This document shows, piece by piece, positions 4,334 to 10,745 of a stretch of 32,236 nt of DNA. The DNA is from Actinomycetota bacterium. Lineage in GTDB: Bacteria > Actinomycetota > Acidimicrobiia > Acidimicrobiales > Ilumatobacteraceae. The translations under genes and the position numbers were made by a program. The stretch covers positions 1-32,236 of the forward strand of contig JAUSLQ010000291.1 in assembly GCA_030645675.1 (NCBI GenBank), read 5' to 3'. The notes beneath the pieces were generated by a model, which saw only the letters and a list, made by a program, of their open reading frames with translations, had not been told where the DNA came from and searched no databases. Each line of letters opens with the position of its first letter. The first letter of the stretch is position 1.

Positions 4334-5494
4334 TCACCCGGCTATGCCGCGCTGCACCACGGCGTGCACCAGCGGCACTCCGGGTCGGTACACGAGGTGT
4401 GTGTACGAGGGCGCCTCCAGCACCACCAGATCGGCGCGGGCACCTGGGCACAGCACCCCCACGTCGTCGCGTCGCAAGGCCAGCGCGCCTCCGAGCGTGG
4501 CCGCGAGCAGCGCCTCTTCGGGGGTCATGTGCATGTCGCGCACGGCCAGTGCGATGCAGAACGACATCGAGGTCGTGTAGCTGCTGCCAGGGTTGCAGTT
4601 GGTGGCGATCGCGACGGTGGCACCGGCATCGATCACCCTGCGGGCGTTGGGGTACGGCTGGCGGGTGCTGAAGTCGGTCGCCGGAAGGAAGGTGGCCACG
4701 GTGTCGCTGCCCGCCAGCGCGGCGATGTCGGCATCACTGAGGTACGTGCAGTGATCGGCCGAGGCACAGCCCATCTCCACGGCCAGCTGCACCCCGGGGC
4801 CGTGGCCCAATTGGTTGGCGTGCAGCCGCAGGCCGAGACCGCGCTCACGGCCCGCGGCCAGCACTTGCCGGCACTGCTCGGCGTCGAACGCACCCACCTC
4901 GCAGAACGCGTCGATCCAGCGCGCGTGTGGTGCCACGGCGTCGAGCATGTCGGTGCTCACGTGGTGCACGTAGTCGTCGATGCGGCCCGCGAACTCCGGT
5001 GGCACCACGTGCGCGCCGAGGAACGTGGTCTCGGGGGTGATCTCGCCGGCCACGCGCAGGCAGCGCGTCTCGTGTGCCACGTCGAGCCCGTAGCCCGACT
5101 TGATCTCGATGGTGGTGATGCCCGCACGCCGCGCCTCGGCCCGCCTGGCAGCAGCCAGGGTGCGGAGCTCGTCGTCGGTGGCGGCACGCGTGGCTGCCAC
5201 CGAGACTCGGATGCCGCCGGCCTCGTACGGCCTGCCGGCCATCCGGGCGGCGAACTCGTCGCCGCGGTCGCCGGCGAACACCAAGTGGGTGTGGCTGTCG
5301 ACGAAGCCGGGGATCACGCAGCGGCCACCGGCATCGATGCGCCGGTCGGCCACCTGGCCTGCCGGGCCGACCGCGATCACCACCCCGTCCTGGAACACCA
5401 CCGATGCGTTGCGCACCAGGCCGAGCGGCCCCTCGCCCACCGTCGGGTCGTTGGTGACGAGCAGTCCGATGCCGTCGACCACCGCGCTGCTCAC
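4334..5494 (-). CDS. hutI: Imidazolonepropionase
   Basis: Third step of histidine degradation: hydrolysis of 4-imidazolone-5-propionate to N-formimino-L-glutamate in the cytoplasm. The 386-residue protein is an amidohydrolase with the metal site DSHTH (His68, His70), the substrate stretch [10 protein letters not shown] (about 130-138), HANQLGHG (His225) and DHCTYL (His248). The position where HutI normally has the metal-binding or catalytic Asp (TD-x-NPG in other HutI proteins) reads Asn299 in ATNCNPGSS. The start is a GTG at 5494 overlapping the hutF stop by 4 bases (GTGA), giving coupled translation. The family assignment is firm because of the motifs and the hutH-hutU-hutF context. Confidence 0.95.
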
Positions 5495-6849
5495 GAGAAG
5501 CCTTCCACCAGCTCGCCGATGACGGCACCCAGTTCGGCCGCGACGTCGATGGAGCAGTGGCGCCCGTCGGACACCACCACGCGACCACCGGCGACCACGT
5601 GGTGCACATCGGCCGCGCCGGCAGCAAAGACAGCAGTCTCCAACAGCGTGTGCGCCGAGGCCCCAGCGGTGCGCACGGTGTCCATCCGGACGCTGACCAG
5701 GTCGGCCGGCGCGCCGACCTCGATGCGACCGGCTTCCGGCCACCCCAGCGACGCATGCCCCTGCACCGTGGCCGCCCGCAGCAACGACACCGAGTCGTGC
5801 AGGCCGCGCACCTGAGAGGCCAGGCGCTGGTCCAGCTCCACCGCCCGCGCTTCTTCGAACATGTCGACGATCGCGTTCGAGTCCGTGCCCAGCGCGAGGT
5901 GGGCACCGGCGTCGCGCAGCGCCCATGCCGGCCCGATGCCGTCCGCCAGGTCGCGCTCGGTCGTGGGGCACAGGCAGATGGTGCTGCCGGCCGCGCCGTA
6001 CAACCCGATGTCGGCCCCGGCCAGGTGGGTGGCGTGCACTGCGGTGAACTGCCGGCGCAACACCCCGCGCTCGGCCAGCAGTGCCGTCGGGGTGACGCCG
6101 TACACCTCGATGCACCGGTCGTTCTCCGCCGGCTGCTCGGAGACGTGGGCGTGCAACGGCGCATCGTGACGTTCCGCCCACTCGGCGACCACCTCGATGC
6201 CGGCCGGGTCGACGGCGCGCACGGAGTGGATCGCAGCACCCACACGAACAGCGGGCCCGGACAATGCTTCGACGGCCTCCGAGGCACGCACCGCCCAGGC
6301 CAGCGCGTCGCCGTCGCTGAACCGTCGCTGCTGGGCGTTCAAGACTTGCCCGATGCCACCGTGCAGATAGCACGCATCCAACAAGGTGATGCGCAGGCCG
6401 GCCTCCTCGGCGGCGGCCACCAGCGCAGCGCTCATCGCGTTCGGATCGGCGTACGGCGTGCCGCCGGCACCGTGGTGCAGGTAGTGGAACTCTCCCACAC
6501 ACGTGATGCCGGCCATTGCCATCTCGCCATACACCGCACGCGCCAACCGGAAGTACGAGTCGGGGTCCAGCCGCTCGCACAAGCCGTACATCTGCTCGCG
6601 CCACGTCCAGAACGAGCCGTTGCCCACCTGTGTTCGCCCACGCAGCGCACGATGGAATGCGTGGCTGTGCGCATTCGCCAGCCCAGGCAGGGTGAGCCCG
6701 GCGAGGCGCGTGGCCTTGGCGGGGCACTCGACGCCCGACAGGACGCCCGTGATGGCCCCGGCTTCCACCTGCACCAGGACGTGCGGCGTGGCCAGCGCGC
6801 TGCCCAGCCACGCCGTCTCACACCAGTACAGGCCCGACTCTGACGCCAT
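5491..6849 (-). CDS. hutF: Formimidoylglutamate deiminase
   Basis: Converts N-formimino-L-glutamate to N-formyl-L-glutamate plus ammonia, marking the five-step histidine pathway rather than direct formimino hydrolysis. The protein has 452 residues, the normal HutF length. Motifs are the metal pair HSH (61-63) in [17 protein letters not shown], the family marker FWTWREQMY (about 80-88), HAHVSEQ later in the barrel, and the metal Asp in GTDSNA. The ATG at 6849 follows immediately on the TAG stop of the deformylase-like gene (TAGATG), so the two are almost certainly coupled. Its product needs an N-formylglutamate deformylase (HutG), yet no HutG-family gene is seen in this window. Confidence 0.95.
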
Positions 6850-7425
6850 CTACGAGCCCACTCGTTGCACGAACTCGGAGATGCGAGCGACGAACGCATC
6901 GCGGTGGAACCGCTCGAACTGCTCCCAGGTGGTGAGCGTGCGCGTGTCGTGCACCCGGTCGAGGAACAGCACGCCATCGAGGTGGTCGCACTCGTGCTGG
7001 AACGTGCCGGCGGTCAGCCCGCGTCGCACTTCGTCGTGGGGCGTGCCTTCGCGATCCAGCCATCGGACGCGGACGTTCACGTGGCGCAACACGTTGCCGC
7101 GAAGGTTGGGCACCGACAAGCAGCCTTCGTTCACGTCGACCACCTCGTCGTCGAGCGGCTGGATGATCGGGTTCACCACCACGGTCAGCGGGATGCGCGG
7201 CTTGTACGGGTAACGGGGGTTGTCGCGCACCTCGATAGTGGCGATGCGCAGCAGCTCGCCCACCTGTGGGGCGGCGATGCCCGCACCGTTGGCGGCCCTC
7301 ATCGTGTCGATCAGGTCGTCGATCAGCTCTTGCACGATCGGCGTGGCCAGCTCGGCCGGCGTGACTTCACGCGACCGCTGGCGCAGCAACAGGTTGCCCA
7401 CGTGCAGGATCTCGCGAACGGTCAT
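6850..7425 (-). CDS. def: Peptide deformylase family protein in the hut operon
   Basis: 191 residues with all three peptide deformylase motifs intact: GAGIAAPQVG (motif 1), EGCLSVP (motif 2, metal Cys) and QHECDHLDG (motif 3, the HExxH-like metal site with catalytic Glu). It should be an active metallohydrolase that removes formyl groups. It lies between hutU (3 bases after its stop) and hutF (no gap), so it is co-expressed with histidine degradation. A housekeeping role at N-formyl-methionine of new proteins is the default. The location suggests instead, or as well, action on N-formyl-L-glutamate made by HutF; this is inference. The start codon is ATG at 7425 with GAGGA directly before it, a cramped ribosome site consistent with coupling to hutU. 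Confidence 0.93.
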   Translation of the reverse strand: MTVREILHVGNLLLRQRSREVTPAELATPIVQELIDDLIDTMRAANGAGIAAPQVGELLRIATIEVRDNPRYPYKPRIPLTVVVNPIIQPLDDEVVDVNEGCLSVPNLRGNVLRHVNVRVRWLDREGTPHDEVRRGLTAGTFQHECDHLDGVLFLDRVHDTRTLTTWEQFERFHRDAFVARISEFVQRVGS

Positions 7426-7428
7426 TCC

Positions 7429-9099
<1,671 letters not shown>

Positions 9100-9113: not shown

Positions 9114-10667
9114 TCAGGAAGCGGATTCCAACGGGCCGACAGCGGCTTCCACTGCGGCGAGGACACTGCCCTCGGCGAGCAGCAGTTCGGCGCGGCACAG
9201 GTCGGGCGACAACCAGCGGTCGGGGCCCGGCCCGGCGACGTGCTCGCGGAGCACCCGAAGCGCGGCACCGGTGCCGGCCGCAGGGTGGAGTGGCCCGCGC
9301 AGGTCGATCGCCGCGGCGGCGCACACCATCTCCACGGCCAACACCCGACGCAGGTTGGCCACGCTGCGGCGCAGCTTGCGAGCGGCGGCCCAGCCGTTCG
9401 AGACGTGGTCTTCCTGCATCGCGCTGGTGGGCATGCTCTGGGTGCTGGCGGGCACCGCCAGCCGCTGGTTCTCCAGGGCCATCGCCACCTGCGTGTAGTG
9501 GGCGATCATCATCCCGCTGTTCACACCCGCATCGGTGGACAAGAACGGGGGCAGCCCGTGCGAGCGGGCCACGTCGAGCATGCGGTCGGTGCGCCGCTCG
9601 GCGATCGCGGTCAGCTCGCTGGCGGCGATGGCGAGGAAGTCGCAGACGAACCCCACCGGTGCGCCGTGGAAGTTGCCGCAGCTCTCCACCCGGCCGTCGG
9701 GCAGGATCATCGGGTTGTCGATGGCCGCCTGCAGTTCGCGCTCGGCGATGGTGCGGGCGTGGGCCATCGTGTCCAGGGCAGCACCGTGCACCTGGGGCGT
9801 GCAGCGCAACGAGTAGGCATCCTGCACCCTCGAATCGCCCACCCGGTGGCTGGCGACGATCGCCGAACCGGCCAACAGGCGGGTGAGGTTGCGAGCGCTG
9901 GCGGCCTGGCCCACCTGCGGCCGCAACGCCTGCAGGTCGGCGGCAAACGCGCGGTCGGTGCCCAGCAGGCCCTCCACCGTCATCGCCGCCGTCAGGTCGG
10001 CCAGCCGGGCGAGCTCGCCCAGGTCGTGCAACGCAAGGCACAGCATGCCCAGGATGCCATCGGTGCCGTTGATCAACGCCAGGCCCTCCTTGGCGCGCAA
10101 CGTGACGGGCGCGAGCCCGGCCTGCCGCAAGGCGACGGCCGTGGGAACGAGCGCACCTTCGGGGCCCCACACCTCGCCCTCGCCGATGAGTGCCAGCGCA
10201 CAGTGGCTCAGCGGCGCCAGATCGCCGCTGGCGCCCAACGAACCGTGCTCGCGAACCACCGGAGTGATGCCCGCGTTCAGCAGCGCCAGCTGCAGCTCGA
10301 CGATCTCCGGGCGGGCACCGGAGAAGCCCATCGCCAGGCTGCGCGCCCGCAGCAACAGCATCGCCCGCACGACCTCCGGCTCGACGGGCTCGCCCATGCC
10401 GGCCGCATGCGAGCGCACCAGGGCAACCTGCAGCTCTGCCGTGCGGGCGGCAGGAATCGCCGTGTTGGCCAGCGAGCCGAAGCCGGTGGTGACGCCGTAC
10501 ACGGGGGTGTCGGCAGCCACGAAGCCGTCGATCAGGGCGGCCGATCGCTGCATCGCCTGCCGGGCGGCAGTTCCCAGCGCCACCGGGACGGCGCGCCGAG
10601 CGACGGCGACCACGTCGGCCGCGGCGACACCGCGCGGCCCGAGTTCGATGGTCTGCTTGTCTTTCAT
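9114..10667 (-). CDS. hutH: Histidine ammonia-lyase
   Basis: First step of histidine degradation: elimination of ammonia from L-histidine to give urocanate. At 517 residues it is near the family norm. The self-forming MIO electrophile comes from Ala146-Ser147-Gly148 in [14 protein letters not shown], and the catalytic tyrosine is Tyr57 in [11 protein letters not shown]. The ATG at 10667 gives the conserved N-terminal length, though its upstream GCAGG is too close to be a normal ribosome site; an in-frame GTG at 10721 would add 18 poorly conserved residues. It follows the PhnD-like gene by 78 bases and begins the hutH-hutU-def-hutF-hutI series. Confidence 0.96.
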
Positions 10668-10745
10668 CCTGCGCAACAGCTTGCCACACGACGCAATAGA
10701 CCTGCAACCATCACCGGGCACGTCCCGAGCCGTGCCGCAGCGGGT

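Follow-up and report, generated by a model that had tools for sequence, protein, structure and literature searches.

Peptide deformylase (PDF) is an antibiotic target and is assumed to act on nascent proteins; why, then, does a PDF gene lie inside an operon for histidine breakdown? The operon in question runs on the minus strand of the 32,236-nucleotide stretch of DNA analysed here (the window). It comprises hutH (histidine ammonia-lyase, 9114..10694; TIGR01225, 631 bits), hutU (urocanate hydratase, 7429..9087; TIGR01228, 896 bits), a PDF paralogue of 191 aa (6850..7425; PF01327, TIGR00079), hutF (formimidoylglutamate deiminase, 5491..6849; NF006681, 617.5 bits; TIGR02022, 456.5 bits) and hutI (imidazolonepropionase, 4334..5494; TIGR01224, 369.9 bits). 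The hutH start was picked within a longer open reading frame (9114..10721), and that of hutI was set at the GTG at 5494, likewise within a longer open frame. From hutU on, the genes are tightly packed: there are 3 bases between the end of hutU at 7429 and the PDF ATG at 7425, the PDF stop closes at 6850 with hutF beginning at 6849 (0 bases), and the hutI start at 5494 makes a short overlap with the hutF end at 5491. HutF yields N-formyl-L-glutamate, together with ammonia. We propose that the PDF gene is an extra class-I paralogue that has been recruited as an N-formyl-L-glutamate deformylase, a stand-in for HutG; we infer the substrate, and assign this reading a probability of just under 0.8.

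The remainder of the window has its own features. Upstream of hutH lies a gene for a phosphonate-binding-like protein (PF12974; 10746-11495, minus strand), relatives of which occur near several hut clusters. There are also two homologues of the MttB methyltransferase family (PF06253; 12492-14180 and 27868-29424, both plus strand), and genes for oxidoreductases and ABC transport flank them and lie in the interval; the first of these homologues scores far under the cut-off of the trimethylamine model TIGR02369.

The PDF gene is intact and begins with ATG. Its product scores 148 bits against PF01327 (cut-off 22.8) and 117.5 bits against the peptide deformylase model TIGR00079 (cut-off 103.95); when it was searched against Pfam and NCBIfam at E 0.001, PDF models alone matched, and not the HutG family (TIGR02017/PF05013). 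The three catalytic motifs are present in the translation (GAGIAAPQ at 47-54, EGCLS at 100-104, HECDH at 144-148), and Gln54, Glu100, Cys102, His144, Glu145 and His148 are invariant across 101 aligned PDFs. The AlphaFold model (pLDDT 96.2) has as its closest solved fold the PDF of Leptospira (1sv2; Z 28.8, rmsd 0.9, 172 residues). The initial annotation had described an operon of hutH, hutU, hutF and hutI, with a three-motif deformylase fitted between hutU and hutF by 3-base and 0-base junctions; the open reading frame, the motifs and the PF01327 match bear out the latter, and all four hut assignments stand above their NCBIfam cut-offs.

That annotation had also proposed counting the deformylase and HutG genes of the genome. 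The source assembly (4.09 Mb, 296 contigs, 80% complete) proves to contain one further PDF, on another contig (C259), the frame of which overlaps the start of an fmt-like gene; this def-fmt layout is that of a housekeeping copy. The fmt-like product falls under the TIGR00460 cut-off (182.6 against 201.5 bits), and both of its Pfam formyltransferase domains pass. The window copy is therefore not the sole deformylase but an extra one; it is 30% identical to the second PDF, and it has no def-fmt neighbourhood of its own. We treat that neighbourhood as a sign and not a rule, because many true PDFs lack such neighbours. As for HutG, neither it nor any other FGase (PF05013) protein exceeds its cut-off in the source assembly at its 80% completeness, where the best match, on another contig, reaches 14.5 bits. 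The count thus returned no HutG over cut-off either here or in the 296 Actinomycetota genomes described below. The idea that HutG is encoded elsewhere in the genome was rejected on these grounds, within the limit set by the 80% completeness of this assembly; the nine other genomes found to carry this PDF type are 96-99% complete.

The association of this PDF with hut genes extends well beyond the window. The PDF protein alone was searched against 84,980 species genomes, from which 254 relatives were confirmed and the best 80 retained; because the search patterns came from the window protein, this set favours near relatives. Hut genes adjoin the PDF in 69 of these best 80 of 254 (hutF in 68), an arrangement that is far above chance, and the remaining 11 are Myxococcota, to judge by their titles. 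Orthologues include those of the cultured Desertimonas flava SYSU D60003 (L034:9974-10546) and of Sorangium (L056) in the Myxococcota, and the named relatives suggest that the window comes from an Acidimicrobiia-like actinobacterium. We analysed 75 non-redundant hut loci in addition to the window, having dropped three repeats (L088, L089 and L134, which duplicate L025, L012 and L047) both from the 75 loci and from the 76 hut PDFs considered below. The PDF immediately precedes hutF in 72 of the 75, and the median gap, as measured between match ends, is 9.5 bases; gene order is changed in two of the other loci, and the hutF match is missing from the third. Locus L090 has the order hutU-hutF-PDF-hutI (PDF at L090:8329-8901), and locus L047 the order hutU-hutF-hutI-PDF (PDF at L047:7330-7905). 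All M20, PDF, PhyH and hut genes in the fetched loci were called by tblastn with one query each.

Some of these loci contain additional genes. A PhyH-family (phytanoyl-CoA dioxygenase-like) gene precedes the PDF in 18 of the 75, and follows hutU wherever the contig includes hutU; an example is at L122:5509-6363 (plus strand), and the one member scanned matches PF05721. The window has only its 3 bases at that place. At L042:8415-10004 (plus strand), hutU and the PDF are separated by a second histidine ammonia-lyase-like gene, a diverged one, with similar matches in L045 and L064. Genes of this type are 28-31% identical to the window's HutH, and a closer hutH is also present on the other strand.

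To what extent does the PDF follow HutF across a phylum? In a sample of 296 genomes drawn evenly across Actinomycetota, 58 have a strong HutF, defined as at least 240 bits on TIGR02022 by a cut that was set after the scores were seen (the next match is at 217.6 bits). The 58 include the window's genome and two partial matches (G111 and G175). The HutF regions of the other 57 were fetched and mapped; L145-L147, with weak HutF, are excluded from the 58, and 12 further weak-HutF genomes lie outside the fetched set. The PDF-type profile matches 12 of the 296 genomes, ten of them at 295 bits or more, which we take as hut-type by a cut also set after the scores were seen; the others are G111 (256 bits) and G167 (174 bits), whose PDF-type matches are not with a HutF match. 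All ten hut-type carriers are among the 58 strong-HutF genomes (hypergeometric 4e-8, uncorrected for kinship), and in each the PDF is in the hut cluster.

A further observation concerns what the remaining clusters contain. Among the 58 HutF genomes the cluster has the PDF in 10, an M20 amidohydrolase in 33, neither in 15 and both in none (Fisher p 6e-5 for exclusion, uncorrected for kinship); M20 is similarly absent from all 69 hut loci among the best 80 PDF relatives. The 15 clusters with neither gene in the fetched region, several of which reach a contig edge, raise the possibility that other solutions exist. HutG itself (TIGR02017, cut-off 278.75) is over its cut-off in 0 of the 296 genomes, where 13 weak matches lie at 44-90 bits. 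PF05013 matches 13 of the 73 genomes with a HutF, be it strong (58) or weak (15), and none of the 13 matches is beside hutF. Two of the ten PDF carriers, G091 and G247, have such an FGase homologue, a remote one that lies away from the cluster; at E 0.001 the other eight of the ten have none. Each of the ten has at least one further PDF. Since two or more PDF matches also occur in 21 of the 48 strong-HutF genomes that lack a hut PDF, a spare PDF is weak evidence on its own.

In Myxococcota the same relationship appears in a different form. We sampled 140 genomes and defined the strong PDF type as at least 269 bits, again by a cut set after the scores were seen (the next score is 228); 16 genomes carry it. 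Of these 16, 13 have HutF, as do 39 of the 124 genomes without the type (p 1.8e-4 by Fisher's test, with no correction for kinship), and the other three carriers give no HutF match; HutF is found in 3 of the 15 genomes that score next below the cut (168-228 bits). In the 13, the PDF and hutF are unlinked: they occupy separate contigs, or, in one genome, are megabases from each other. Such co-occurrence without linkage is not the pattern expected of a gene that is merely parked. The genomic predictions of the initial annotation were borne out here: the PDF type tracks HutF, in the cluster in Actinomycetota (10/10) and unlinked in Myxococcota. A point that speaks against the proposal is that FGase (PF05013) homologues are present in 10 of the 11 Myxococcota genomes first examined, and so the PDF may not be needed there for the N-formylglutamate step; the one such homologue that was scored with the HutG model reaches 132 bits, where 278.75 are required.

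We then consider how the hut PDFs relate to other members of the family. A quick tree gathers the G111 copy, 11 PDFs from Myxococcota and the 76 hut PDFs on a single long branch (SH-aLRT 97; 0.84 changes per column), and the remaining 39 actinobacterial PDFs lie elsewhere; the program warned that long branches meet in it. On this tree the hut label has to change twice, because L090 groups with the Myxococcota; this placement suggests a second, independent entry of a PDF into a hut cluster. The G111 gene (L211:3400-3957, plus strand) lies between exopolyphosphatase-like and ACC-deaminase-like genes, with no hut genes, and shares the clade, the altered pocket and the RYPYKP loop of the hut PDFs. 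Given that the altered pocket also occurs in the unlinked Myxococcota and G111 proteins, it may mark an older trait of the clade.

The alterations themselves concern the S1' pocket, which receives methionine in other PDFs. The residues named for this pocket are, in PMC5071857, Val71 and Val171 of SaPDF, from Streptococcus, and, in PMC3101196, Ile42 and Ile130 of AtPDF1B; by a motif-anchored alignment of sequences, these places correspond to Ala48 and Thr141 in the hut PDF. Thr141 is present in 76 of 76 hut PDFs, Ala48 in 71 and Gly140 in 69. Among 40 other actinobacterial PDFs, position 140 is Arg in 39, while Thr141, Gly140 and Lys75 each occur once, always in the G111 copy; Ala is found at 48 in eight and at 141 in 12, and the pocket is thus not distinctive at each of its positions. 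The loop NPRYPYKPxIPLT is nearly fixed in the hut PDFs and its RYPYKP core is invariant; Arg71, Tyr74 and Lys75, as well as Arg109, are present in 76/76; Lys75 is shared by 11/11 Myxococcota PDFs. There is a gap at Lys75 in 36 of the 40 other PDFs, and so this loop is mostly not comparable. A pocket that is smaller and more polar, and that has gained basic residues, would seem to suit N-formylglutamate better than formyl-Met peptides.

We envisage the following sequence of events. HutF, assigned by family like the steps that lead up to it, would release N-formyl-L-glutamate and ammonia, and the PDF would then convert N-formyl-L-glutamate to L-glutamate and formate via metal-bound water. The usual PDF chemistry could serve, with the metal on Cys102, His144 and His148 and with Glu145 as the general base, the roles that these residues have in the PDF literature. 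Lys75 and Arg71 of the RYPYKP loop, plus Arg109, could hold N-formylglutamate by its two carboxylates where other PDFs take a peptide chain. The deformylation step itself is one that we infer from association, exclusion and the pocket changes.

Three other explanations deserve to be weighed. The initial annotation had allowed that a housekeeping deformylase might simply be parked here, that is, a second ordinary PDF that still serves nascent proteins. The intact catalytic motifs and the TIGR00079 score would fit this idea, as would the frequency of spare PDFs in strong-HutF genomes without a hut PDF (21/48). However, the hut PDFs form a deep, separate clade with different S1' residues, hut genes accompany them in 75 non-redundant loci of several gene orders, and in Myxococcota, where the two are unlinked, this PDF type is still found together with HutF. 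Parking thus lacks support, and we regard it as unlikely; the idea of a parked housekeeping gene was rejected in view of the second, def-fmt PDF, the 30% identity between the two, the separate clade and the further PDFs in the carriers.

The enzyme might instead deformylate some other small N-formyl compound linked to histidine breakdown (for example, one that derives from imidazole compounds of a related kind), in which case N-formylglutamate would be dealt with by another route. The PhyH-type dioxygenase in 18 of 75 clusters hints at extra substrates, and Table 3 of PMC3223725 reports that an M20 protein of the same clusters elsewhere is without deformylase activity. Nevertheless, it is HutF that adjoins the PDF, and HutF makes N-formylglutamate; in the ten carriers, moreover, no HutG exceeds the cut-off and eight have no FGase homologue at E 0.001. 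We consider this proposal decidedly improbable. As to the notion that the PDF is a dedicated processing factor for the maturation of HutF or of some other operon product, the tight coupling to hutF is what one might expect, but all ten carriers have a further PDF, and 48 of the 58 HutF genomes have no such PDF in the cluster. We know of no precedent for a PDF dedicated to maturing a single operon protein, and we give this last idea almost no credence. A predicted N-formylglutamate deformylase is the reading that we retain.

We are not the first to notice the missing step. The M20 proteins of the hut clusters are of the 'allantoate amidohydrolase' type (NF006770, PF01546; e.g., L130:5667-6995, plus strand) and often lie between hutU and hutF; one member was scanned with family models and the others were assigned by similarity to it. 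In Table 3 of PMC3223725, the M20 group COG0624 is predicted to be an 'alternative form of N-formylglutamate deformylase', and the same table records that no deformylase activity was detected for the Streptomyces avermitilis protein. To judge from that table, either gene position has misled here before or the assay failed; where a gene lies does not amount to proof. Two points favour the PDF over the M20 proposal: N-deformylation is the chemistry of its family, and it tracks HutF even when unlinked.

In the collection of papers that was searched, we found none that joins N-formylglutamate with peptide deformylase and histidine, nor one that pairs N-formyl-L-glutamate with peptide deformylase. 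We lean towards a broader view, in which this whole PDF clade, found in Actinomycetota and Myxococcota alike, has abandoned nascent proteins and serves metabolism as an N-formylglutamate deformylase, and in which Actinomycetota, seemingly without HutG, close the pathway with unrelated enzymes: the PDF in some, perhaps M20 in others. If true, a PDF clade at work in the catabolism of small molecules would clearly exemplify non-orthologous displacement, a gap in actinobacterial histidine breakdown that was left open by earlier comparative genomics would be filled, and there would be a warning that such genes are misnamed peptide deformylase.

It is instructive to set the hut PDF beside the systems that it resembles. 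M20 (COG0624; NF006770) is also found in the hut cluster, in 33 of the 58 HutF genomes and never alongside the PDF; it differs in belonging to another family (PF01546), and Table 3 of PMC3223725 leaves its predicted activity in S. avermitilis unconfirmed. HutG (TIGR02017, PF05013) shares with the hut PDF the proposed reaction, and both would answer one need, that which arises after HutF, whereas its protein family is different and it is over cut-off in 0/296 Actinomycetota; the hut PDF shows a HutG-like genetic association with the HutF pathway, in clusters and in co-occurrence. The class I type b PDFs (PF01327; Leptospira interrogans 1sv2, Pseudomonas aeruginosa 6jfc) have the fold (a predicted one in the hut PDF), the three catalytic motifs and the RYP-motif loop in common with the hut PDF. 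In contrast to them, the hut PDF sits in hut operons and is additional to another PDF; relative to the hut PDF, the two nearest solved sequences have Val in place of Ala48, Ile or Arg in place of Gly140, Val in place of Thr141, and a loop without Lys. The hut PDF is a true member of the PDF superfamily with a predicted new substrate, and would do HutG-like work from outside the HutG family.
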